Source: Sulfurospirillum diekertiae (GTDB taxonomy: Bacteria > Campylobacterota > Campylobacteria > Campylobacterales > Sulfurospirillaceae). Taken from it: 64,000 bases of DNA. A model generated the notes under the pieces. That model saw only the letters and a program-made list of their open reading frames with translations. It was not told the origin of the DNA and ran no database searches. The stretch lies in NCBI RefSeq assembly GCF_002309535.1, contig NZ_CP023275.1, positions 806,001 through 870,000 of the forward strand, read 5' to 3'. The number at the start of each line of letters is the position of its first letter. The first letter of the stretch is position 1. Shown here one piece after another: positions 16,824 to 27,201 of the stretch. The position numbers and the translations under genes are program-made.

Positions 16824-18149
16824 TTATTTTTGGTGTGTTTTATAGCGTTTAACCAAATGTTTTGGTGAAACACCACACCAGTATAAAAAGCTTAAAACAC
16901 GGTTGCGAAGGGTGGTGTAAACGATGCCTTCTTTCTGCCATCTTCTGGATGACGTTAAGACTTTGGATTTTAAAAGGGCGATCTTTTCACCTTGTTTTTG
17001 AATGCGTTTCATCATCTCCACATCTTCCATGAGCGGAATTTCTGCGTAGCCACCGAGGTTTCTAAAAAAAGAAGTTTTAAAAAATTGGGCTTGGTCGCCG
17101 TAAGGGATTTGAGAAAAAGAGGTGCGAAGATTTGCCATGGTTTCGATGAAACGAAGGACAACGTTGGCATCATCAATCCCCAGTGAAAAAGCGCCCGCTT
17201 TGTTTACATGTAAAGATTCTTGGATGAGCGTGTCCCATGCGTTTGGAAGCAGAGTATCGGCATGTAAAAAAAGCACAATGTCTCCCCGTGCTTTGCGTGC
17301 GCCTTCATTCATCTGGGAGGCTCTTCCTTTTGGGGCAAAGACGATGTGAACATCTTGTAAGGCTAAATGCTCCACCGTTGTTTTTTCCTGTGTGTCGACC
17401 ACGATAATTTCGTAGTTTTTATTTTGTGCCATCTCTCTCAAATGTGCTAGGGTTTTCAGCAGTGTTTCGTCTTCATGGTATACGGGGATGATGACACTGA
17501 TGTGGGGCAATGTGCCTAAAATACGCTGTGCGAAGTGTGTCAGAGGTGTCGTAAACGCTTTACATGTAAAAACACGCAGGTCATCCAATGTGTCGATGTC
17601 AGAAAGCATCGCCCCTTTGGCAACGCGAAGATGTGCCATCTTTGAAAGCGTTTTAGCATAGACATCGTTTTGGCTGTAGGTAATGCCTTTAAACGCCTCT
17701 TGGCAAAAGGTGTCAGCATGAAAACCAATGAGATAATACCCGCCATCTAGCGTAGGAGAGAGTAGGGCATCGTTGGAAGAAAGTAAGTCAAACGCTTCTT
17801 TTAAAAGGAGTTCATCCACTTCGGGAATATCCGAACCCACTAAAATAGCGCGTTCATATCCTTGTGCAAATACTGTTTCAAAGGCATTTTTCATGCGCTC
17901 ACCCAAGTCCTTGCCGCTTTGATACAAGAGAGGTTTATGTTCCACATAAGCAGGTAAAGACATACGTGCTTCATCATCATACGCCACGATAACATCGACA
18001 TCGTGTGGTAGCGTTATGCTGAGCAGTTGTTCACACATTAAGCGGTAAAGTATGGTAGCGTTTTCATCGCCAATATGCTCAGCAAGGCGTGTTTTTACTC
18101 GACCAACAAGGGGCGCTTTCATAAAAAGAATTAGTGCGTTTTGGCGCAT
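16824..18149 (-). CDS. Fused TIGR04282-TIGR04283 glycosyltransferase (arsenosugar/rSAM-associated type)
   Basis: The 441-residue protein fuses two families that are usually separate neighbouring genes. Residues 1-200 are TIGR04282/DUF2064 (ALILFMKAPLVGRVKTRLAE, then VGSDIPEVD and TLDGGYYLIGF). Residues 215-441 are a family 2 glycosyltransferase of the TIGR04283 kind (HISVIIPVYHEDETLLKTL, LFLHADTLLP, FMEDVEMMKRI-like). Both were named rSAM/selenodomain-associated and later tied to arsenosugar biosynthesis. The gene overlaps the kinase gene upstream on the same strand by 19 bases and faces away from the radical SAM-ArsM operon. Two palindromes lie in frame. Confidence 0.85.
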   Translation of the reverse strand: MRQNALILFMKAPLVGRVKTRLAEHIGDENATILYRLMCEQLLSITLPHDVDVIVAYDDEARMSLPAYVEHKPLLYQSGKDLGERMKNAFETVFAQGYERAILVGSDIPEVDELLLKEAFDLLSSNDALLSPTLDGGYYLIGFHADTFCQEAFKGITYSQNDVYAKTLSKMAHLRVAKGAMLSDIDTLDDLRVFTCKAFTTPLTHFAQRILGTLPHISVIIPVYHEDETLLKTLAHLREMAQNKNYEIIVVDTQEKTTVEHLALQDVHIVFAPKGRASQMNEGARKARGDIVLFLHADTLLPNAWDTLIQESLHVNKAGAFSLGIDDANVVLRFIETMANLRTSFSQIPYGDQAQFFKTSFFRNLGGYAEIPLMEDVEMMKRIQKQGEKIALLKSKVLTSSRRWQKEGIVYTTLRNRVLSFLYWCGVSPKHLVKRYKTHQK

Positions 18150-19222
18150 AAATGCCGCTCCACAATAGCGATAAATTCTTCCACACTCTTTACATGTAAA
18201 AAGTGTTCAACCAGCTCTATGCTCAGGTTTTCACACAGCGCATAGGCTTTTGTTTTGGCTTTTTTAGAACGAATTGCTTCAAGAGGTTTAGCTTTGGCAG
18301 GGACGACCAAACGGCGCGAAAGCTCTGCTCCACAAAAGCCGACACTCTGCTTTAAAATGTGTTCAGGTACGCCACCCACTTTTTTTTCAAAGGATCTCCA
18401 CAAGGCGGAAATGATGGGTTTGAATTGGAGAGGTTTTTTCTCAAAAAGGGTGTAGATTTCTCCCAAAAGGATGTGCGCTAAAAGTGTTCCCACATCAAAG
18501 CCCAAAGGACCAAATAAAGAGAATTCTGCATCGATGATGGCGAGGTTTTCATGCTTTGTCATGATAGAACCTGTGTGCAAATCACCATGAAGTAAACACT
18601 CTTTTTCCGTTTGAAAGAGGTTTAAAAGAAGGTCAATATTTTGCAGAAAAAGGGCACTTTTGGGTTTAGGGCAAAAGTAAGAAGGCAAGACTAAAGCAGG
18701 GTGATTGGCAATATAAGGGAAGATGAAAATATACTCTTCGCTGATGCGTTTAAGGGTGGTATTTTCATAGTAATTGGCATCTTGTTTTGGTGGTGTTTTA
18801 GCGTAGAGCGTTGCCAAAAATGAGCCCAGTTTCGTGTAAATGGAGAGCGGAATAAACTGATCTAACTGTGCGCTTTGCAAGAGTTTATATCCTACAAGGT
18901 CTTCCATCGCAAAGCAAAATGCCGCTTCATCACAATGGTAAAGGTTCGGAATGAAGGATGGTGCGATAGTTTTAAAGTAAGAGAGCGTGTGCATTTCCAC
19001 ACAGATACGCTCTTGGGGTAAGGGAAAATCTTCACCAAGCAGCCTAAGATAGGGCGCTGCGTATTTGAGTATGAGTGTTTTTCCCTTTTCATCGTAGAGG
19101 CGAAAGATAAAATTTAAGTTACCGTCTCCAATTTCACTGACATGCAAAGGAGCGTGGTTGAAAAATGTGTTTAAAGCCGTTGTTTTCTTGACATAGTCGA
19201 TCACCTCGTTTTCGGTTTGCAT
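18131..19222 (-). CDS. mtnK: 5-methylthioribose kinase homologue (MtnK-like)
   Basis: The protein kinase-like (APH fold) enzyme has LLHGDLHTGSIM as the catalytic loop and IIDAEFSLFGPLGFDVGTLLA-like metal-binding region, both close to MtnK (split here as HGDLHTGSI and GPLGFDVG). MtnK phosphorylates C1 of 5-methylthioribose. No mtnA or mtnB is near. The gene is coupled to the arsenosugar-type glycosyltransferase, so a 5-substituted ribose other than methylthioribose, such as an arsinoyl-ribose, is an attractive substrate; this is inference. I start at ATG 19222 behind GGGAGGA rather than the upstream codon at 19273. The IDAEF in place of IDPEF is a small departure from the family. Confidence 0.8.
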   Translation of the reverse strand: MQTENEVIDYVKKTTALNTFFNHAPLHVSEIGDGNLNFIFRLYDEKGKTLILKYAAPYLRLLGEDFPLPQERICVEMHTLSYFKTIAPSFIPNLYHCDEAAFCFAMEDLVGYKLLQSAQLDQFIPLSIYTKLGSFLATLYAKTPPKQDANYYENTTLKRISEEYIFIFPYIANHPALVLPSYFCPKPKSALFLQNIDLLLNLFQTEKECLLHGDLHTGSIMTKHENLAIIDAEFSLFGPLGFDVGTLLAHILLGEIYTLFEKKPLQFKPIISALWRSFEKKVGGVPEHILKQSVGFCGAELSRRLVVPAKAKPLEAIRSKKAKTKAYALCENLSIELVEHFLHVKSVEEFIAIVERHLCAKTH

Positions 19223-19434
19223 GTCCAAAATCCTCCCATGTAAAAGCGCCATTATAGCAAAAACAGTCAACAAACATTGACCGTGTTAACCTTTTTCTAA
19301 GTCGTAACAGTTTATCATGTCGGATAACTCATGTAATGGCTTAAGGTTTAAGCGTACATCAAAAGTGACATGAAACTGCTCTTTTTGATACTTCCCAAAA
19401 TCCTTACATGTAAAAATCCCTTTTAGGAGAACAG

Positions 19435-19884
19435 ATGAAACTTGCTTCATTGTTTGTGTTGCCGATTGCGGCTTTATTATTGATTGGTTGTGGTGGTGGA
19501 AAGGTTAAAGAAAACTCAAAATACAACTACATTACAGCGGATGAGACAGCAAAATTGATACGCGAAGATGCTTCCAAAATCGTTCTTGTTGATATTCAAG
19601 AAAAACCTGATTTTGATGAAGAACACTTAAAAGGCGCTTTGGCGACGTATGCGTACCCTGTGAAAACAGAAGATGAAAAAGCAAGACTAGCAGCACTTCT
19701 TCCAGAGATTAAAGAGGGTCAAAAAGTGATTATTGTTTGTCCACGAGGCGGTGGAGGAGCGGATCGCGCGTATGATTTCTACCTTTCAAAAGGTGTTAAA
19801 AAAGATAACCTTTTAACCCTCAAAGATGGACAATACGGTTGGCCACGCGATAAAGTCAAAGATGTTTTAGCCGTTAGCAAATAA
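19435..19884 (+). CDS. Rhodanese-domain lipoprotein
   Basis: The 149-residue protein has a lipobox (LLIGC, Cys19), so it is lipid-anchored in the periplasm. The mature part is a single rhodanese domain (TADETAKLIREDASKIVLVD, DEEHLKGA) with the active-site cysteine in VIIVCPRGGGGADRAY. Rhodaneses carry persulfide sulfur or bind oxyanions; in a metalloid module this could mean thiolation or redox handling of arsenic species outside the cell. It is the first gene of a run of overlapping genes (19435-27201) and is divergent from the kinase. Confidence 0.85.
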   Translation: MKLASLFVLPIAALLLIGCGGGKVKENSKYNYITADETAKLIREDASKIVLVDIQEKPDFDEEHLKGALATYAYPVKTEDEKARLAALLPEIKEGQKVIIVCPRGGGGADRAYDFYLSKGVKKDNLLTLKDGQYGWPRDKVKDVLAVSK

Positions 19885-20555
19885 TGTTCAAACCACGCAA
19901 AATCGCGATACTGCTCTTTGTCGGTATCGCGCTCACCCTTCTTTTTACGTGCCCACAAAGCCGAAACTATTTTTTTGATGTAGTAGGGCTATTTGAAGGT
20001 CTTGATATTGAAAAAATCAAAGCGTACATCCTCTCTTTTGGTATTTTAGCACCACTGATCTCCTTTGCCTTGATGGTTTTCCAAGCCGTTGTCGCTCCTT
20101 TGCCCGCATTTCTCATCACCTTTGCCAATGCGGCGCTGTTTGGTTGGGTGTACGGAGCCGCACTTTCATGGGTAAGTGCTATGGTGGGTGCCCTTTTGTG
20201 CTTTTACATCGCCAAGTTTTTAGGGCGTGAAGTGGTTGAAAAATTGACCAGCAAGATGGCGTTAGAGAGTGTCGATGCTTTTTTTGAAAAACATGGCACG
20301 TATGCGATTTTGATTGCACGTCTTTTGCCTTTTATCTCGTTTGATGTGGTCAGTTACGCCGCAGGACTGACGTCTATGAGTCTTCGTTCTTTTTTGATCG
20401 CTACGGGCGTGGGACAACTGCCTGCAACATTGATCTACTCGTATGCGGGAGAAATGCTGACCGGTGGTGCTCAAACGATTGTGTATGGACTTTTGATCTT
20501 ATTTGCCCTTTCACTTTTGATTTATTTGATTAAGCGGGTGTATCGTGGAAAATAA
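19884..20555 (+). CDS. TVP38/TMEM64-family membrane protein (VTT/SNARE-associated domain), first copy
   Basis: The 223-residue protein has about five membrane segments and the VTT-domain core FANAALFGWVYGAALSWVS followed by YIAKFLGR and LLPFISFDVVSYAAGLTSM. The family includes DedA-like proteins and is often found in operons with mercury or arsenic genes and rSAM/selenodomain genes; its transport role is unsettled. The ATG overlaps the rhodanese stop by one base and its own end overlaps the next gene by 11 bases, so the genes are tightly coupled. Confidence 0.85.
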   Translation: MFKPRKIAILLFVGIALTLLFTCPQSRNYFFDVVGLFEGLDIEKIKAYILSFGILAPLISFALMVFQAVVAPLPAFLITFANAALFGWVYGAALSWVSAMVGALLCFYIAKFLGREVVEKLTSKMALESVDAFFEKHGTYAILIARLLPFISFDVVSYAAGLTSMSLRSFLIATGVGQLPATLIYSYAGEMLTGGAQTIVYGLLILFALSLLIYLIKRVYRGK

Positions 20556-21648
20556 AATCAAAGCGTATGAGCGTGAGTGTGTGGATTGTAGGAGTTGTAT
20601 GAAGGGTTGTCCGATGTTGTACAGCTTTACCATCTCTCCCAAAAAATTGCTCACCAAATTCACCACGGAGATTCCAAGCTCTCAGATGGCGTTTTCATGC
20701 GCAAATTGTGGTTTATGTGCACATGCATGTCCACGTGATATTGACTTTGGCGCGATCTTTACGGCTTCTAAGAAGAACTACGCTGAAGATAAAAAAGTGT
20801 TGAAAAAGTATGGCTATGGTGGCGTGATATTCCATCAAAAAAGTAGTTTTTCAAAACTTTTTTCTACTACAAAAAAGTTTACAACTGGAGAGTACACCCA
20901 TATGGCATTTATGCCTGGATGTGCGCTAAGCTCGTACTCTCCGAACCTCGTTCACACCGTTTTTAATTACTTACAATCCAAATGTTCTGGCATTGGTATC
21001 ATTCAACAATGCTGTGGCACACCCACTCGTGTTATGGGCGATATGGCACAATTTAAAATCTACCACTCACAGCTTGAAGCAGACCTAGATAAAATGGGTG
21101 CGACCACCGTTGTGACAGCCTGTGAAAACTGTTTTATGAGCATTAAAACCTATGCCCCACATATTAAAATCGTTTCACTTTATTCACTGTTAGCGCAGAT
21201 TGGACTTCCAGAAAGCGCCAAAGACCGCCATAAAAATACCCTGAAAATGGCACTGCATGACCCGTGCCCCACACGGTATGAAAAAGAGATTCATAAAGAC
21301 GTTCGTACCCTTTTAGCACAGATAGGTTTACCTTTTGAAGAGTTCAAACAAAATCGTGAGAAGACGCTTTGTTGCGGAAGCGGAGGTATGTTGGAGCTGA
21401 CCAATTCTGCTTTAGCGCATGAGCAAATGCGCACGCGTGCCAACCAAACAGAGTGCGAAAGCATCGTCAGTTACTGCCAAAGTTGCGCGGAGTCGATGAG
21501 TCATGGGGGTAAAAATGGCGTGCATCTGCTCGATCTTATTTTTAACCCCACCTTTGAGATGAAGCAAAAAGAGCAGGGAACTTTAAAAAAATGGTATAAC
21601 CGTTTTACATCACGTCAAATGATCAGCGCTCTAAAGGATAACACATAA
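20545..21648 (+). CDS. Fe-S oxidoreductase with two CCG domains (GlpC/HdrD-like)
   Basis: The 367-residue cytoplasmic protein has two [4Fe-4S] ferredoxin motifs (CVDCRSCMKGCP near 12-22, CANCGLCAHACP near 52-63). These are followed by two CCG domains (QCCGTPTRV with ACENC, and LCCGSGGML with YCQSC). The layout matches GlpC, LldE/LutA-fusion and HdrD-type subunits that move electrons between quinol or thiols and a partner. In this operon it may reduce a metalloid-thiol intermediate or the radical SAM cluster; that is inference. The start is GTG at 20545 inside the previous gene. Confidence 0.83.
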   Translation: MENKIKAYERECVDCRSCMKGCPMLYSFTISPKKLLTKFTTEIPSSQMAFSCANCGLCAHACPRDIDFGAIFTASKKNYAEDKKVLKKYGYGGVIFHQKSSFSKLFSTTKKFTTGEYTHMAFMPGCALSSYSPNLVHTVFNYLQSKCSGIGIIQQCCGTPTRVMGDMAQFKIYHSQLEADLDKMGATTVVTACENCFMSIKTYAPHIKIVSLYSLLAQIGLPESAKDRHKNTLKMALHDPCPTRYEKEIHKDVRTLLAQIGLPFEEFKQNREKTLCCGSGGMLELTNSALAHEQMRTRANQTECESIVSYCQSCAESMSHGGKNGVHLLDLIFNPTFEMKQKEQGTLKKWYNRFTSRQMISALKDNT

Positions 21649-21680
21649 AAAAGGTCATACTTTTTTTAGCCTTTGGCATT

Positions 21681-22289
21681 GTGATGTTTGTCTTTTATAA
21701 AAATGGCGTGCTCTCTTACGCACAAGTTGAGTCCATCAAAACGTTTGTACTTGGCTTTGGTATTTACGCACCGCTTATTTTCATAGCTCTTTTTACGCTT
21801 GCACCGCTTATCTTCTTTCCTGATGGTATTTTAGCACTTGCGGGCGGGCTCATTTTTGGCTTTGCATGGGGGAGTTTTTACATCATTTTAGGCGCACTGT
21901 GTGGCGGTACATTGTCGTTTTACCTTGCACGACTTTACAGCCATAAAATGCGTGAAAAATTGGCGCATGAAAAACTGATTCATTTTCAAAAAAGCGTTCA
22001 AAAGCATGGTTTTGTGATGATTTTACTGCTTCGTTTAGTCCCCCTTGTGCCGTTTAACATCATCAGTTACAGCGCTGGGTTCTCAACGATTCGCTACCGT
22101 GATTTTTTCTTTGCAACGCTTTTGGGTATGATGCCAGGAGTTTTAGTGTACGCCAATATCGGCGCGCAATCGCTAAGTTTTGGAAGCCAAGAGTTTTACC
22201 TCTCTGTGGTATTATTGGTTGTGCTAGTGGTGGTTTCGATGGTGTTAAAACACCGTGTAAAAAAGAGGTTGGAGCGGTATGAAAAGTAA
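21681..22289 (+). CDS. TVP38/TMEM64-family membrane protein, second copy
   Basis: The 202-residue VTT-domain protein parallels the copy at 19884 (GGLIFGFAWGSFYIILGALC, LARLYSHKMRE, LLRLVPLVPFNIISYSAGF). Reading upstream from GTG 21681, the frame stays open to 21645 and gives a normal first helix, IKKVILFLAFGIVMF, but begins with ATA overlapping the previous TAA. The true start may therefore be ATA 21645, a former ATG, or GTG 21681 or ATG 21684. The 3' end overlaps the radical SAM fusion gene by 11 bases. Confidence 0.78.
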   Translation: MMFVFYKNGVLSYAQVESIKTFVLGFGIYAPLIFIALFTLAPLIFFPDGILALAGGLIFGFAWGSFYIILGALCGGTLSFYLARLYSHKMREKLAHEKLIHFQKSVQKHGFVMILLLRLVPLVPFNIISYSAGFSTIRYRDFFFATLLGMMPGVLVYANIGAQSLSFGSQEFYLSVVLLVVLVVVSMVLKHRVKKRLERYEK

Positions 22290-25269
22290 TTGGCAACGTA
22301 TTGTTTTTGAAGAGAGTCCTATTTATGTGCATCGCCACAGTGCGGACTGGTTTGTGCCCAATGCAAGTGCGGATGCTTTGTTACAAAGTGAGGTAAAAAG
22401 CCTTACGTATGAGGCGTTAAAACGTCGTATTTCTGAACCAAATCCTTTGGTTTATACGCCAAAACAAACTTCTAAAACAGCGCTGCAAGAGTTTTGGATC
22501 CATCTGACCAATCGTTGCAATCTCTCGTGTACACATTGCCTTTTTAACTCTTCACCTACAGAGAAAGATACACTGAATTTTGAGTCTATTTCTTTACATG
22601 TAAAAGAGGCGTACACACTGGGTTGTCGGCTTTTTATCATTAGTGGTGGTGAACCGTTGGTACATCCTGAGCTGTTGGCGCTGGTGGAGTTAATTTTAGC
22701 ACTCAGTGACACCGAAGTGGTCATCTTGACCAATGGTATGTTGCTTGAAAAACTCTTTACATGTAAAGAGTTTCCAACGTCACGTTTGCACTTTCAAATC
22801 AGCCTTGATGGGCTTCCAAAAGAACACGATGCGATCCGTGGGCAGGGAAGTTTTGACAAGCTTGAACACAACATCGTTTGGCTTCAAAAAACGGGTTATT
22901 CGTTTTCATTGTCAGTGTGTCTGCATCCTCTGAATATTCAAAGTTTAGAAAAAATTGTGGTATTGGCAAGCGAACTTAAAGCTGGGCATTTGCATTTTTT
23001 ATGGTATTTTTCGCGTGGACGAGGCGTTGATGAAAGGTTGATAGACCAAGACATTCTCTTTAAAGCGCTGATAAATGCCTATGAAAAAGCGCAAAATTTA
23101 GGCTTAGTTATTGACAATTTTGAAGCGCTCAAGACGCAAATCTTTGCCCCCAAAGGTACGGTACATGACGGCTCTAGTTCGGGGCGAAGTTCCATCGCTT
23201 TAGGCTACGATGGACACTTTTACCCCAGTGCCGCGATGGTAGGTGAGAGTGCGCTTTTAATGGAAGGTGAGAGCATTGTTGAGGCGCTTGAAAGTAAGGT
23301 GGCTCAAGCGATTTGGGCGCAGTCCATCACCGCACTCTCTTCGCCACTTCGTTTTTTACTGGGTGGTGGCGACTTAGACCACAGCTTTTCTCATGCCAAA
23401 ACCTTGATGGGCGATGACCCGTATGAACCCCTTTTGGAGAAGCTTGCTTTGTGGATGATTTCACAAGAGGCGAAGCGATTTGAGCCTTTACATGTAAAGC
23501 CTGCGTTGTGTTTGGAAATGGGTGACATCTTGCAGAGTTGCGGCGCAAATGAAGGTGTGGCGCATACCCATGCGAACTGTCTACTTGCCACAGGCGAGAG
23601 CGAATCGTTGCGCCTTGTGAAAGCCTTTTACCATGACGCGGCATTGGAAGATAAAGAAGACATCCTCAACCCTGCGTGTTACGAAGAGCAGTACCTTTCG
23701 CACATTCCCTCCCATTTGCGCTTTCGTGGGTACGGCTGTGGTAGTCCTATCTTAGATGCAAAGCTCAAAATGGGTGAATCCATGCTTGACCTTGGCTCTG
23801 GCAGAGGCATTGAGTGTTTTATCGCCTCAAAACTTGTAGGGAAAAGTGGGCGTGTCGTGGGTGTCGATATGCTCGACTCCATGCTCAAAATCGCGCGAAG
23901 CGGGGCAGAAGAGGTGGCACAACGTCTGGGTTATAACAACCTCACGTTTGCCAAAGGTTACCTTGAAGCATTGCCAGAAGAAGATGAGCGTTTTGATGTC
24001 ATCACCTCCAACTGTGTGCTGAACCTTTCCAGTCACAAACGCAAACTCTTTGCAGAAATCTTTCGGGTGCTTAAAAAGGGCGGAAGGCTCGTGGTTTCCG
24101 ATGTTGTGTGTGATGTTGAGGCAAGTGCGCTCATCCGCAATGACGCAAAACTGAGTGGCGAGTGCATCGGTGGGGCACTCACGCAAGCCCATCTTTTAGG
24201 ACTGCTACGTGAGAGTGGTTTTGAGAACGTAGAGCTTATCAAACGCTTTTTTTACCGTGAGGTGCAAGGGCATATGTTTTACTCAATCACGTTTGAGGCA
24301 CACAAGCCAGACACGCAAAAGCAGGTCGAAGTCATCTACAAAGGTGTGGGCGAAAGTCTTGCATTAGACAATGGTATTGTGCTGTTTAAAGGGGTTAAAA
24401 CATGCATTGATGAGGCTTTGGCAAAGCGGTTGGAAAGCGAGCTGTTTCTACTGGACGATGATGGTAATGTCACCAATCAAGAGGGTCAAAGCTGTTGTTG
24501 TGCGACACCACCTGAGTCCAAACCAAGCCTTTTATTGACGCCAAAACCGACAGCAAAGGTTTCATTTAGCATAGCACCTTCTAAGAAAAACCATAACTGC
24601 ATGGTCTGCGCATCGGCGCTTGTTTACACACCCTCACCGCACGAAGTGACATGTTATTATTGCGGAAGTGTGAGCGTTCAAAGCGTTACATGCCAAGAGG
24701 GGCATTATGTGTGCGATGCGTGTCATTCCAAAGAGGCACTAGCCGTCATCGAACATATCTGTGCTACGTCTAAAGAGCGCGATATGCTCAAACTTTTTCA
24801 GCAGATACGAGAGCATCCAAGCATCCCAAAACACGGACCAGAGCATCATGCCATGGTGCCTGCCATTATCGTTACCGCCTATAAAAACAGCGGTGGGAAA
24901 CTTCCCGAAAATGCACTTAAAACAGCGCTTTCACGCGGCTCTAGTATTATGGGTGGTGCCTGTGGATTTTTAGGGATTTGCGGTGCGGCTTCGGGGGTTG
25001 GCATTGGCTTTGCGATTGTATTGGAGGCTTCACCCGTGGTGGCAAAAGCACGCTCTGCGGCTCAAAAGGTCACATACGCAGTACTCGGTAAAATCGCTGA
25101 GTACGAAGCGGCACGCTGTTGCCATAGAGAAGTCTGGACAGCGCTCAATATCGCTTCATCGCTCTCCGAAACCTTTTTACATGTAAAGCTTTTGGCACAG
25201 ATGGAAACGAAATGCGATCAGAAAAAGTTTAACCAATATTGCTATGGAAAAGAGTGCCCGATATTTTAA
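22279..25269 (+). CDS. Radical SAM - ArsM-like methyltransferase - DUF5714 triple fusion
   Basis: This is a 996-residue protein of three parts. Residues 70-380 are radical SAM with the cluster motif CNLSCTHC (Cys 80, 84, 87), ISGGEP at 121-126 and LDGLP. Residues about 465-735 are an ArsM-type arsenite methyltransferase: YGCGSP 485-490, LDLGSGRGIECF 503-514, VGVDML, SNCVLNLS 577-584, GECIGGA 627-633, FYSITFEA. Cys487, 579 and 629 fall where ArsM has its arsenic-binding cysteines. A CCC cluster is at 739-741. Residues 772-996 match DUF5714 with two CXXC pairs, HGPEHH 852-857 and GGACGFLGICGAASG 892-906. It sits mid-operon. The predicted job is methylation plus adenosyl transfer on arsenic or a similar element. 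Four palindromes lie in frame. Confidence 0.82.
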   Translation: MKSNWQRIVFEESPIYVHRHSADWFVPNASADALLQSEVKSLTYEALKRRISEPNPLVYTPKQTSKTALQEFWIHLTNRCNLSCTHCLFNSSPTEKDTLNFESISLHVKEAYTLGCRLFIISGGEPLVHPELLALVELILALSDTEVVILTNGMLLEKLFTCKEFPTSRLHFQISLDGLPKEHDAIRGQGSFDKLEHNIVWLQKTGYSFSLSVCLHPLNIQSLEKIVVLASELKAGHLHFLWYFSRGRGVDERLIDQDILFKALINAYEKAQNLGLVIDNFEALKTQIFAPKGTVHDGSSSGRSSIALGYDGHFYPSAAMVGESALLMEGESIVEALESKVAQAIWAQSITALSSPLRFLLGGGDLDHSFSHAKTLMGDDPYEPLLEKLALWMISQEAKRFEPLHVKPALCLEMGDILQSCGANEGVAHTHANCLLATGESESLRLVKAFYHDAALEDKEDILNPACYEEQYLSHIPSHLRFRGYGCGSPILDAKLKMGESMLDLGSGRGIECFIASKLVGKSGRVVGVDMLDSMLKIARSGAEEVAQRLGYNNLTFAKGYLEALPEEDERFDVITSNCVLNLSSHKRKLFAEIFRVLKKGGRLVVSDVVCDVEASALIRNDAKLSGECIGGALTQAHLLGLLRESGFENVELIKRFFYREVQGHMFYSITFEAHKPDTQKQVEVIYKGVGESLALDNGIVLFKGVKTCIDEALAKRLESELFLLDDDGNVTNQEGQSCCCATPPESKPSLLLTPKPTAKVSFSIAPSKKNHNCMVCASALVYTPSPHEVTCYYCGSVSVQSVTCQEGHYVCDACHSKEALAVIEHICATSKERDMLKLFQQIREHPSIPKHGPEHHAMVPAIIVTAYKNSGGKLPENALKTALSRGSSIMGGACGFLGICGAASGVGIGFAIVLEASPVVAKARSAAQKVTYAVLGKIAEYEAARCCHREVWTALNIASSLSETFLHVKLLAQMETKCDQKKFNQYCYGKECPIF

Positions 25270-25285
25270 AAGTAGGTAAGAGCGA

Positions 25286-26101
25286 ATGATGAAATATAAA
25301 CGTGAATTTATGGGTGAATGCTTAGGAACGTTTATGATGGTGATGTTTGGATGTGGTTCTGTTGCGGTGTCGGTGTTGTTTAATGCCCATCAAGGTTTGT
25401 TCCAAATAGCGATGATTTGGGGTATGGGTGTGAGCCTTGCCATTTACGCGGCACGTCATTTATCGTGCGCGCATCTCAATCCAGCCGTGACGTTGGCAAT
25501 GGTGATGAGCCAAAGAATGACGATCAAAAAAATGCCTGTTTATCTTTTAGGGCAGTTTCTTGGCTCTTTTGGTGCAGGTGTGATGGTATATGCGCTCTTT
25601 AATCCTTCTATTGTGGCCTTTGAAAATGCGCATCACATCATTCGCGGTACGCAAGAGTCCATTGCAATCGCGAAAATGTTTGGTGAATATTATCAACTCC
25701 CTAACACTGCCGCTATCGTCTCGCTGCCCTTGGCAATGATTGCAGAGGGATTTGGAACGTTCTGCCTTGTGATTATCATTTTTTGTTTGACGGAGAGCTG
25801 TAATTTGGGACGACCCGATGACAATATAGCCCCCATTCTCATAGGGCTCGCCGTCACTTCCATCATCTGCCTTATCGCCCCTTTAACGCAAGCAGGACTG
25901 AACCCTGCACGGGATTTTAGTCCTCGTATGGTTGCATGGATCTTTGGGTGGAAAGAGGCTTCTTTTCCTGATCAAGTTGGAGGTTTCTTTTGGGTTTATA
26001 TCTTAGCTCCTTTGCTTGGAGGCATGAGTGCTGGATTTTTATTTACATACCTCATTGAGCCTCTGATGCGCAACAAATGTGAAAAATGTGACTGCCAATA
26101 A
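25286..26101 (+). CDS. Aquaglyceroporin (MIP family, GlpF/AqpS-like)
   Basis: The 271-residue channel has six helices and the two half-helix motifs LNPAVT and LNPARDFSPR. The aspartate after NPAR is the mark of aquaglyceroporins rather than water-only aquaporins. Such channels pass As(OH)3 and methylated arsenicals as well as glycerol, and AqpS in rhizobial ars operons does this. The C-terminus ends in a cysteine-rich tail (CEKCDC), unusual for the family and possibly metal-binding. It follows the ArsM fusion by 16 bases. Confidence 0.87.
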   Translation: MMKYKREFMGECLGTFMMVMFGCGSVAVSVLFNAHQGLFQIAMIWGMGVSLAIYAARHLSCAHLNPAVTLAMVMSQRMTIKKMPVYLLGQFLGSFGAGVMVYALFNPSIVAFENAHHIIRGTQESIAIAKMFGEYYQLPNTAAIVSLPLAMIAEGFGTFCLVIIIFCLTESCNLGRPDDNIAPILIGLAVTSIICLIAPLTQAGLNPARDFSPRMVAWIFGWKEASFPDQVGGFFWVYILAPLLGGMSAGFLFTYLIEPLMRNKCEKCDCQ

Positions 26102-26112
26102 AAAGGATGATG

Positions 26113-27201
26113 ATGAAAACACGTATTATTTTAGTGGGTGGATTTTTGGGAGCGGGTAAAACTACGCTGTTGTGTGAGTCGGCACGAATGCTGAGTGAAC
26201 AAGGCAAACACGTTGGTTTAATCACCAATGATCAAGCCTCAGGACTGGTCGATACAGCGTTTCTTGAGCGTTCTCTCCGTTGCGTTACAGAGGTGAGTGG
26301 TAGCTGCTTTTGCTGTAATTTCAATGGTTTTGTAGAGGCTATCTCTCACCTCAAAGCAAAAGGTGCTATGGAGATGATTATTGCTGAACCTGTAGGCAGT
26401 TGCACGGATCTTTCTGCCACGATTATGCAGCCTTTAAAACAAAAATTCGAAGAGGATTTGATTGTTTCGCCACTGAGTGTTTTAGTCGATCCCGAACGGT
26501 TGAATGCTATACTCAAAGGTGGCACATCGGGATTTCATGAAAGTGCGGCGTATATTCTTCAAAAACAGCTTGATGAAGCCGATATGATTGTCATCACAAA
26601 AATAGATTTACTCTCACGTGATGCGCTTGAAACCTTAAAAAGACGAGTTGCCAAGAGATGGCCATTAGCTAAAATCTTCTCCTTAAGCGTTAAAAGCGGT
26701 GAAGGCTTGGAACTGTGGCTCGATGAAGTGAGCCATTCTACAGTAGCAGGAACGCACTTAGCCGAAGTGGATTATGATATTTACGCGCAAGGCGAAGCCG
26801 TGCTTGGATGGCTTAACACGACAGTCACCCTTCAAGGTCACTCTGTGAATTGGGATGCGTTCACGCACAAAATTTTAAAAAGCTTGGCAGAGCGGTTTGA
26901 TGCTTTAAACTTAGCCATTGGGCATGTCAAAGTGTTACTCGAAGCAGACAAAAAGTACGTGATAGGCAATGTGACAGGAACGTGTGAATCTCTTAGCATA
27001 AGAGGCAGTGTAGGAAGCGGAAATCAGGCTCAAATGACGTTAAATGCGCGTGTTGAAATGAATCCAGCAGCGTTAGATCGTATTGTAACAGAGGTCCTTT
27101 CTGAGGTATGTGGCAATGAGGTTACTCAAAAAATCGAAGCTTCAAAATGCCTGCAACCAGGACGTCCAAACCCAACCTACCGCTACGATTATGTCGTATG
27201 A
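26113..27201 (+). CDS. CobW/G3E-family P-loop GTPase
   Basis: The protein of about 362 residues has Walker A GGFLGAGKTTLL, the metal-binding CXCC of the family (SCFCCNF), Walker B-like IIAEPVG and the guanine motif TKIDLL. G3E proteins (CobW, HypB, UreG, YeiR) insert or carry metals. It ends the operon and suggests metal delivery to an enzyme of the module, though which metal is unknown. Three ATGs stand in a row; AAAAGGA at 26101-26107 is correctly spaced only for the third, at 26113. The end overlaps the convergent transporter gene by 13 bases. Confidence 0.85.
   Translation: MKTRIILVGGFLGAGKTTLLCESARMLSEQGKHVGLITNDQASGLVDTAFLERSLRCVTEVSGSCFCCNFNGFVEAISHLKAKGAMEMIIAEPVGSCTDLSATIMQPLKQKFEEDLIVSPLSVLVDPERLNAILKGGTSGFHESAAYILQKQLDEADMIVITKIDLLSRDALETLKRRVAKRWPLAKIFSLSVKSGEGLELWLDEVSHSTVAGTHLAEVDYDIYAQGEAVLGWLNTTVTLQGHSVNWDAFTHKILKSLAERFDALNLAIGHVKVLLEADKKYVIGNVTGTCESLSIRGSVGSGNQAQMTLNARVEMNPAALDRIVTEVLSEVCGNEVTQKIEASKCLQPGRPNPTYRYDYVV

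Follow-up and report, generated by a model that had tools for sequence, protein, structure and literature searches.

A Sulfurospirillum gene cluster, probably of the arsenosugar type, in which a radical SAM-ArsM-DUF5714 fusion is proposed to take the place of ArsS and ArsM

Among the major forms of arsenic in seaweed are arsenosugars and arsenosugar lipids; ArsM and ArsS are known enzymes of arsenosugar synthesis. Here we describe a gene module of Sulfurospirillum diekertiae, located at 16824-27201 of a 64,000-nucleotide stretch of DNA (the window; NZ_CP023275.1, positions 806,001 to 870,000) from a complete genome of 2.81 Mb, in which two divergent units bring together a glycosyltransferase (GT) fusion, an MtnK-like kinase and a 996-residue triple fusion of radical S-adenosylmethionine (SAM), ArsM-type and DUF5714 domains. 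We propose, with a probability of roughly 0.64, that the product of the module is an arsenosugar or arsenosugar lipid, built from trivalent arsenic, and that the triple fusion carries out the carbon-arsenic chemistry of both ArsM and ArsS. A first-pass annotation of the window had suggested a metalloid-modification module with arsenic as the best guess, a view that our results support and sharpen to an arsenosugar-type cluster with the triple fusion in the place of ArsS.

The distribution of the GT connects the module with arsenosugar synthesis. In a survey of 397 Campylobacterota genomes, ArsS (TIGR04167, cut-off 300 bits) was found in 17 and TIGR04283 in 32, counting TIGR04283 matches over or just below the cut-off and leaving out one weak match of 109 bits in G051 (G-numbers denote genomes of the comparison set, G000 being that of the window, and L-numbers denote loci mapped within them). 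TIGR04283 accompanies ArsS in 17 of the 17 ArsS genomes, and the remaining 15 TIGR04283 genomes, namely 12 of Sulfurospirillum together with G026, G027 and G365, all carry the triple fusion (split in G106). For G365, which belongs to another genus and has TIGR04283 beside the kinase and no ArsS, a full fusion was predicted beforehand and then found. The result holds in one direction, that the GT implies ArsS or the fusion, as the fusion search covered only part of the genomes without the GT. Within the searched genomes, the triple fusion is limited to Sulfurospirillum and a few relatives.

The GT gene (16824..18149, minus strand) encodes a TIGR04282 domain (DUF2064, CofC-like) fused to a TIGR04283 domain (GT2 glycosyltransferase). 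Both families, which mark arsenosugar clusters, are matched over cut-off (169 bits against 134 and 240 bits against 182, respectively), a CofC Pfam match is also present, and the TIGR04282 half matches the structure 3cgx, a “putative nucleotide-diphospho-sugar transferase”, with an E-value of 6e-37. ArsS, a further marker, was not found over the TIGR04167 cut-off anywhere in G000. Canonical arsenosugar clusters (ArsM, ArsS, TIGR04282 and TIGR04283), such as those of Cupriavidus and Acinetobacter plasmids and the Campylobacterota ArsS loci, share with the window module the two GT-associated families, an ArsM-type domain, TVP38/VTT proteins and Fe-S or FAD redox partners, and in some cases a rhodanese or an aquaporin. 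Unlike them, the window module has the triple fusion instead of ArsS, a separate MtnK-like kinase rather than a methylthioadenosine (MTA) phosphorylase or a TIGR04282-APH fusion, and TIGR04282 and TIGR04283 domains that are fused to each other.

In Campylobacterota, the canonical ArsS clusters hold TIGR04282, TIGR04283, two VTT proteins and a CCG protein, one of them also a rhodanese and one a MIP protein 45% identical to that of the window. In G023, a rhodanese-VTT-CCG-VTT series adjoins an ArsS-ArsM fusion, and the same kinase-GT pair is positioned on another contig. A Pseudanabaena plasmid carries consecutive genes for TVP38, “mercuric reductase”, ArsM, TVP38 and ArsS, and a TVP38/FAD-oxidoreductase fusion lies 3' of ArsS in Acinetobacter. 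Such partners therefore recur in arsenosugar clusters, and because TVP38, Fe-S, rhodanese and aquaporin partners also surround canonical ArsS, the window locus is probably an arsenosugar-type cluster in which the triple fusion stands in for ArsS and ArsM. This linkage and the complementary distribution described above give good support to an arsenosugar-type role.

Conservation of the neighbourhood, whose absence from other genomes would have counted against the first-pass annotation, was found throughout the genus. In 20-kb stretches mapped around module genes in relatives, the order of the kinase and GT fusion, divergent from rhodanese-VTT-CCG-VTT-triple fusion, recurs across Sulfurospirillum, and parts of it also occur outside the genus in G026, G027 and G365. 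In most of the Sulfurospirillum genomes searched, the triple fusion is preserved at full or nearly full length. Of 23 genomes of the genus, 17 carry both the kinase and the triple fusion and 6 carry neither, a co-occurrence of 1 in 100,947 by simple counting that ignores the relatedness of the genomes. Neither the module order nor this pairing is due to chance, given the recurrence of the order in the genus and the shared presence and absence of kinase and fusion. Among the mapped genomes, only G000, G015 and G006 have MIP and CobW genes 3' of the fusion; the conserved unit thus ends at the fusion, and MIP and CobW were ruled out as core parts. In G026 and G027, the kinase and GT still adjoin the fusion, and the mapped stretch either lacks the rhodanese unit or has it in a different position.

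The triple fusion (22279..25269, plus strand) was resolved by NCBIfam and Pfam scans into a radical SAM domain (residues ~70-270), an ArsM-type methyltransferase domain (458-661) and a Cys-rich MbdU-like/DUF5714 domain (734-996). The radical SAM domain carries the CxxxCxxC motif of the superfamily as C80, C84 and C87, invariant in 10 relatives, and matches PF04055 with 75 bits. The best solved-structure matches of the methyltransferase domain are ArsM enzymes, and C487, C579 and C629, likewise invariant in 10 relatives, align with C72, C174 and C224 of 4kw7, which we take to be the As(III)-binding cysteines of that enzyme; the ArsM models are matched below their cut-offs (NF008823, 207 bits against 263; NF038099, 106 bits against 400). 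The C-terminal domain matches DUF5714 (PF18978) with 193 bits, well over the gathering score of 26.2, and aligns with positions 3-266 of MbdU (NF045648) at 138 bits, below the cut-off of 600. Unlike MbdU, which has two selenocysteines (Sec), it has Cys in their place with no in-frame UGA, lacks the MbdU C-terminal part and is fused to radical SAM and ArsM domains. On Paraclostridium plasmids, DUF5714 homologues adjoin arsM, acr3 and arsR, and in one record arsM and arsR.

The kinase gene (18131..19222, minus strand) overlaps the GT fusion gene by 19 bp. An alternative TTG start exists at 19273, and the ATG at 19222 is probably the true start, because one relative has a stop codon inside the upstream extension and others align only from 19222. 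The protein aligns with solved methylthioribose (MTR) kinases and shares the fold, as judged by sequence, with S-methyl-5-thioribose kinase MtnK (2olc, TIGR01767), including the motifs GDGNLN and HGDLHTGS and the twin arginine, which binds methylthioribose in MtnK. Unlike MtnK, it scores 235 bits against the TIGR01767 cut-off of 275, has DAEF for DPEF and shows an altered segment after the twin arginine. In a phylogenetic tree, the cluster-linked kinases group together with 100/100 support, separately from MtnA-linked MtnK, and this clade includes the kinase of G023, the genome with ArsS-ArsM; G365 and G209 are long branches whose own positions are less certain. No MtnA turned up in G000 or in any other tested genome carrying the cluster-linked clade, and it is present in all four tested genomes with an ordinary MtnK other than G209, in which an MtnK-scoring kinase gene is divergent from a TIGR04283 gene and MtnA was likewise not found. 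Given the separate clade and the missing MtnA, together with the score below the model cut-off, a methionine-salvage MtnK was ruled out for this kinase.

In methionine salvage, a sugar-1-phosphate is obtained either by MTA phosphorylase or by a nucleosidase followed by MtnK. From the gene content, protein families, conserved residues, complementary distribution and kinase clade, we infer the following reactions, together with their order and the acceptor. The ArsM domain of the fusion would methylate As(III), the radical SAM domain would add a 5'-deoxyadenosyl group to the arsenic, and the Cys-rich DUF5714 domain may hold or hand over the arsenical. A nucleosidase of the MTA/S-adenosylhomocysteine (SAH) type, encoded outside the module, would then remove adenine, after which the MtnK-like kinase would phosphorylate C1 of 5-arsinoyl-5-deoxyribose, the CofC-like TIGR04282 domain would convert the sugar-1-phosphate to a nucleotide sugar, and the TIGR04283 domain would transfer the sugar to an acceptor, for example glycerol or the head group of a lipid. 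Redox or membrane functions may come from the rhodanese, VTT and Fe-S proteins. In other clusters, MTA phosphorylase would reach the same sugar-1-phosphate in a single step.

More broadly, we tentatively suggest, at slightly under even odds, that arsenosugar synthesis reuses the scheme of methionine salvage: 5-arsinoyl-ribose-1-phosphate would arise, after adenosylation, through MTA phosphorylase or through a nucleosidase and an MtnK-like kinase, TIGR04282 would act as a nucleotidyltransferase, not a glycosyltransferase, and activate this phosphate for TIGR04283, and in Sulfurospirillum another radical SAM subfamily, joined to ArsM and DUF5714, would have assumed the ArsS step. AmgK-MurU, an anomeric APH-fold kinase and a nucleotidyltransferase, offers an analogy in sugar salvage, where a C1 kinase is followed by a nucleotidyltransferase as proposed here; the substrate and families differ. 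Radical SAM adenosylation of arsenic belongs to arsenosugar synthesis (PMC12159101), and a nucleosidase step has been proposed for an algal arsenolipid (PMC10456119).

A prediction written down beforehand was that MTA phosphorylase would be present in ArsS clusters that lack the kinase. On plasmids of Acinetobacter and Burkholderia glumae, a gene annotated as MTA phosphorylase adjoins TIGR04283/TIGR04282 or is separated from them by a single gene, and in a Cupriavidus plasmid a homologue directly follows TIGR04282; the prediction thus held in three proteobacterial plasmid ArsS clusters and is not general. A PF01048 nucleosidase-type protein was found in G000 and in 26 of 26 other genomes tested. 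The word “complete” in the first-pass annotation is too strong for the module: MIP and CobW are accessory genes, and removal of adenine, if it is the work of an MTA/SAH nucleosidase, depends on a gene outside the module. The control genome of Synechococcus elongatus has ArsS and TIGR04283 and no PF01048 match; adenine removal must therefore differ there if the proposed route holds.

Several results weigh against the proposed route and the role assigned to the fusion. MTA phosphorylase was not seen in nine Campylobacterota ArsS clusters (L153-L160 and L163; e.g., L159:12153-13661), which have an APH-like domain fused to TIGR04282; in 9 of 9 the catalytic HGDL of this domain is replaced by NTEL, which makes its kinase activity uncertain, and these clusters may use another route. 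Neither kinase nor phosphorylase was found near ArsS on the Hymenobacter, Thiodictyon and Pseudanabaena plasmids. The radical SAM domain of the fusion scores 52 bits with the ArsS model, where the cut-off is 300, which rules out a true ArsS, and the Rv1681 and mycofactocin families score higher. In addition, two C-terminal ArsS cysteines are replaced by other residues in the fusion (GRSSIALGYDGHFYPS against CRxxISVxxDGxLYDC). As the domain is far from ArsS and these cysteines are replaced, another radical reaction is possible. A fold search with the DUF5714 model, which is poor (predicted local distance difference test, pLDDT, 67), gave no solved match at E 0.001. A profile alignment of the radical SAM domain with ArsS covers 246 columns (98.5%) and reaches the C-terminal region, but it was made with no control radical SAM family and so indicates no specific ArsS kinship; the structure-model search of this part returned general SPASM, MoaA and viperin-like matches only. 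In Burkholderia, the ArsS neighbourhood holds a second radical SAM protein, which showed no close relationship to the fusion.

These properties of the radical SAM domain lend some weight to the idea that the module handles arsenic and yields a different organoarsenical, the domain moving a group other than 5'-deoxyadenosyl and the kinase and GTs acting on that product. The domain is not ArsS-like, its structure model is closest to SPASM-type peptide maturases, and another radical SAM transfer to arsenic, that of an aminocarboxypropyl (3-amino-3-carboxypropyl) group in arsinothricin synthesis, is known (PMC12159101). However, the GT and kinase types are common to canonical ArsS systems, and an MtnK-type site with the twin arginine fits a 5-substituted 5-deoxyribose, so that we regard such a product as unlikely. 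It also appears quite unlikely that the kinase is unrelated to an arsenic pathway and merely co-located, salvaging 5-deoxyribose or methylthioribose from SAM enzymes. Its homology to MtnK would fit such a role, and salvage of 5-deoxyribose by a kinase, an isomerase and an aldolase exists (PMC6079011); but no MtnA-type isomerase was found in the tested kinase genomes, the presence and absence of the kinase track the fusion, and in G023 the kinase gene overlaps the GT gene, both away from ArsS-ArsM.

Selenium or antimony, which the first-pass annotation had kept open beside arsenic, would require the fusion to methylate and sugar-modify selenide or antimonite for detoxification or storage. ArsM enzymes may accept antimony, and the MbdU, TsoB, CobW_rel_Se and diclust_near_Sec models matched here were built from selenoprotein neighbourhoods. 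These models concern Sec inside protein, however, and the Cys residues of the fusion do not fit them in this respect; moreover, the GT families occur with ArsS. Arsenic is favoured because the three predicted As-binding ArsM cysteines are invariant and DUF5714 lies beside arsM-acr3-arsR in Paraclostridium, and the selenium or antimony possibility is weakened to one that we consider very unlikely. The first-pass view that this is not an ordinary resistance operon also stands, as no arsR, arsC or acr3/arsB is present among the module proteins; an acr3 gene is located elsewhere in G000, ~205 kb beyond the window.

The comparison provides candidates for the middle steps of arsenosugar synthesis, namely MtnK-like kinase or MTA phosphorylase, followed by TIGR04282 and finally TIGR04283. 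A literature search covering few subscription papers revealed no bacterial enzymes named for the steps from the adenosylated arsenical to the completed sugar and no kinase or phosphorylase named for the pathway, and earlier publication is possible; the search also returned no paper linking Sulfurospirillum with arsenosugars, or arsenosugar with MTA phosphorylase or MTR kinase. In addition, the radical SAM domain of the fusion is a second candidate radical SAM enzyme for carbon-arsenic bonds, and DUF5714 gains an arsenic link. S. cavolei and S. arcachonense are among the named strains with the fusion and are places in which to look.

All genes named in the first-pass annotation were confirmed in position by the gene list and NCBIfam/Pfam scans, and neighbours on the plus strand overlap by at most 11 bp or lie 5-32 bp apart, in line with its description of nearly touching genes. 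The plus-strand unit begins with a rhodanese-domain lipoprotein (19435..19884; PF00581, lipobox LIGC), followed by TVP38/VTT membrane protein 1 (19884..20555; PF09335), a CCG/4Fe-4S dicluster protein (20545..21648; PF02754, PF13534) and TVP38/VTT membrane protein 2 (21681..22289; PF09335). The CCG protein matches NF045663 with 253 bits (cut-off 530), the match being confined to the C-terminal part of the model. Beyond the triple fusion lie the accessory genes, also on the plus strand, for a MIP aquaglyceroporin (25286..26101; PF00230) and a CobW GTPase (26107..27201; PF02492); the Cys-rich MIP tail NKCEKCDCQ is retained in G015 and G006 and absent from the MIP of a canonical ArsS cluster. The divergent promoter region between the two units (19223..19434) is strongly conserved in close relatives (alignment of 8) and contains the inverted repeats ATCAAAA/TTTTGAT and TCATGT/ACATGA, a candidate regulator site.

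Local variation was also observed among relatives. Rhodanese genes are duplicated in some of them, and one diverged VTT stands alone in G001 and G017. Two additional genes lie beside the kinase in G010, G007 and G018 (L031:13855-16881, L096:1686-4703 and L097:8183-11198); in L031 they encode a solute-binding protein (SBP_bac_3) and a PAS-GGDEF diguanylate cyclase, the L096 and L097 genes being matched by size alone, and the two are perhaps a sensor pair. In G023, a HAD phosphatase gene (L095:9276-9929) immediately precedes the kinase and GT fusion. Both units have decayed in G013 (L039:9856-10245), as only scraps of the GT gene and the final 50 residues of the triple fusion are left. In G106, of the same species as the window genome, the fusion is split into two frames ahead of the DUF5714 part (L166, L169; G106:C1:785444-788424), reflecting either a sequencing error or a real break. 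The draft genome G001 (L029, L098, L094) apparently has two fusion copies and a standalone canonical ArsS adjoining a VTT gene.

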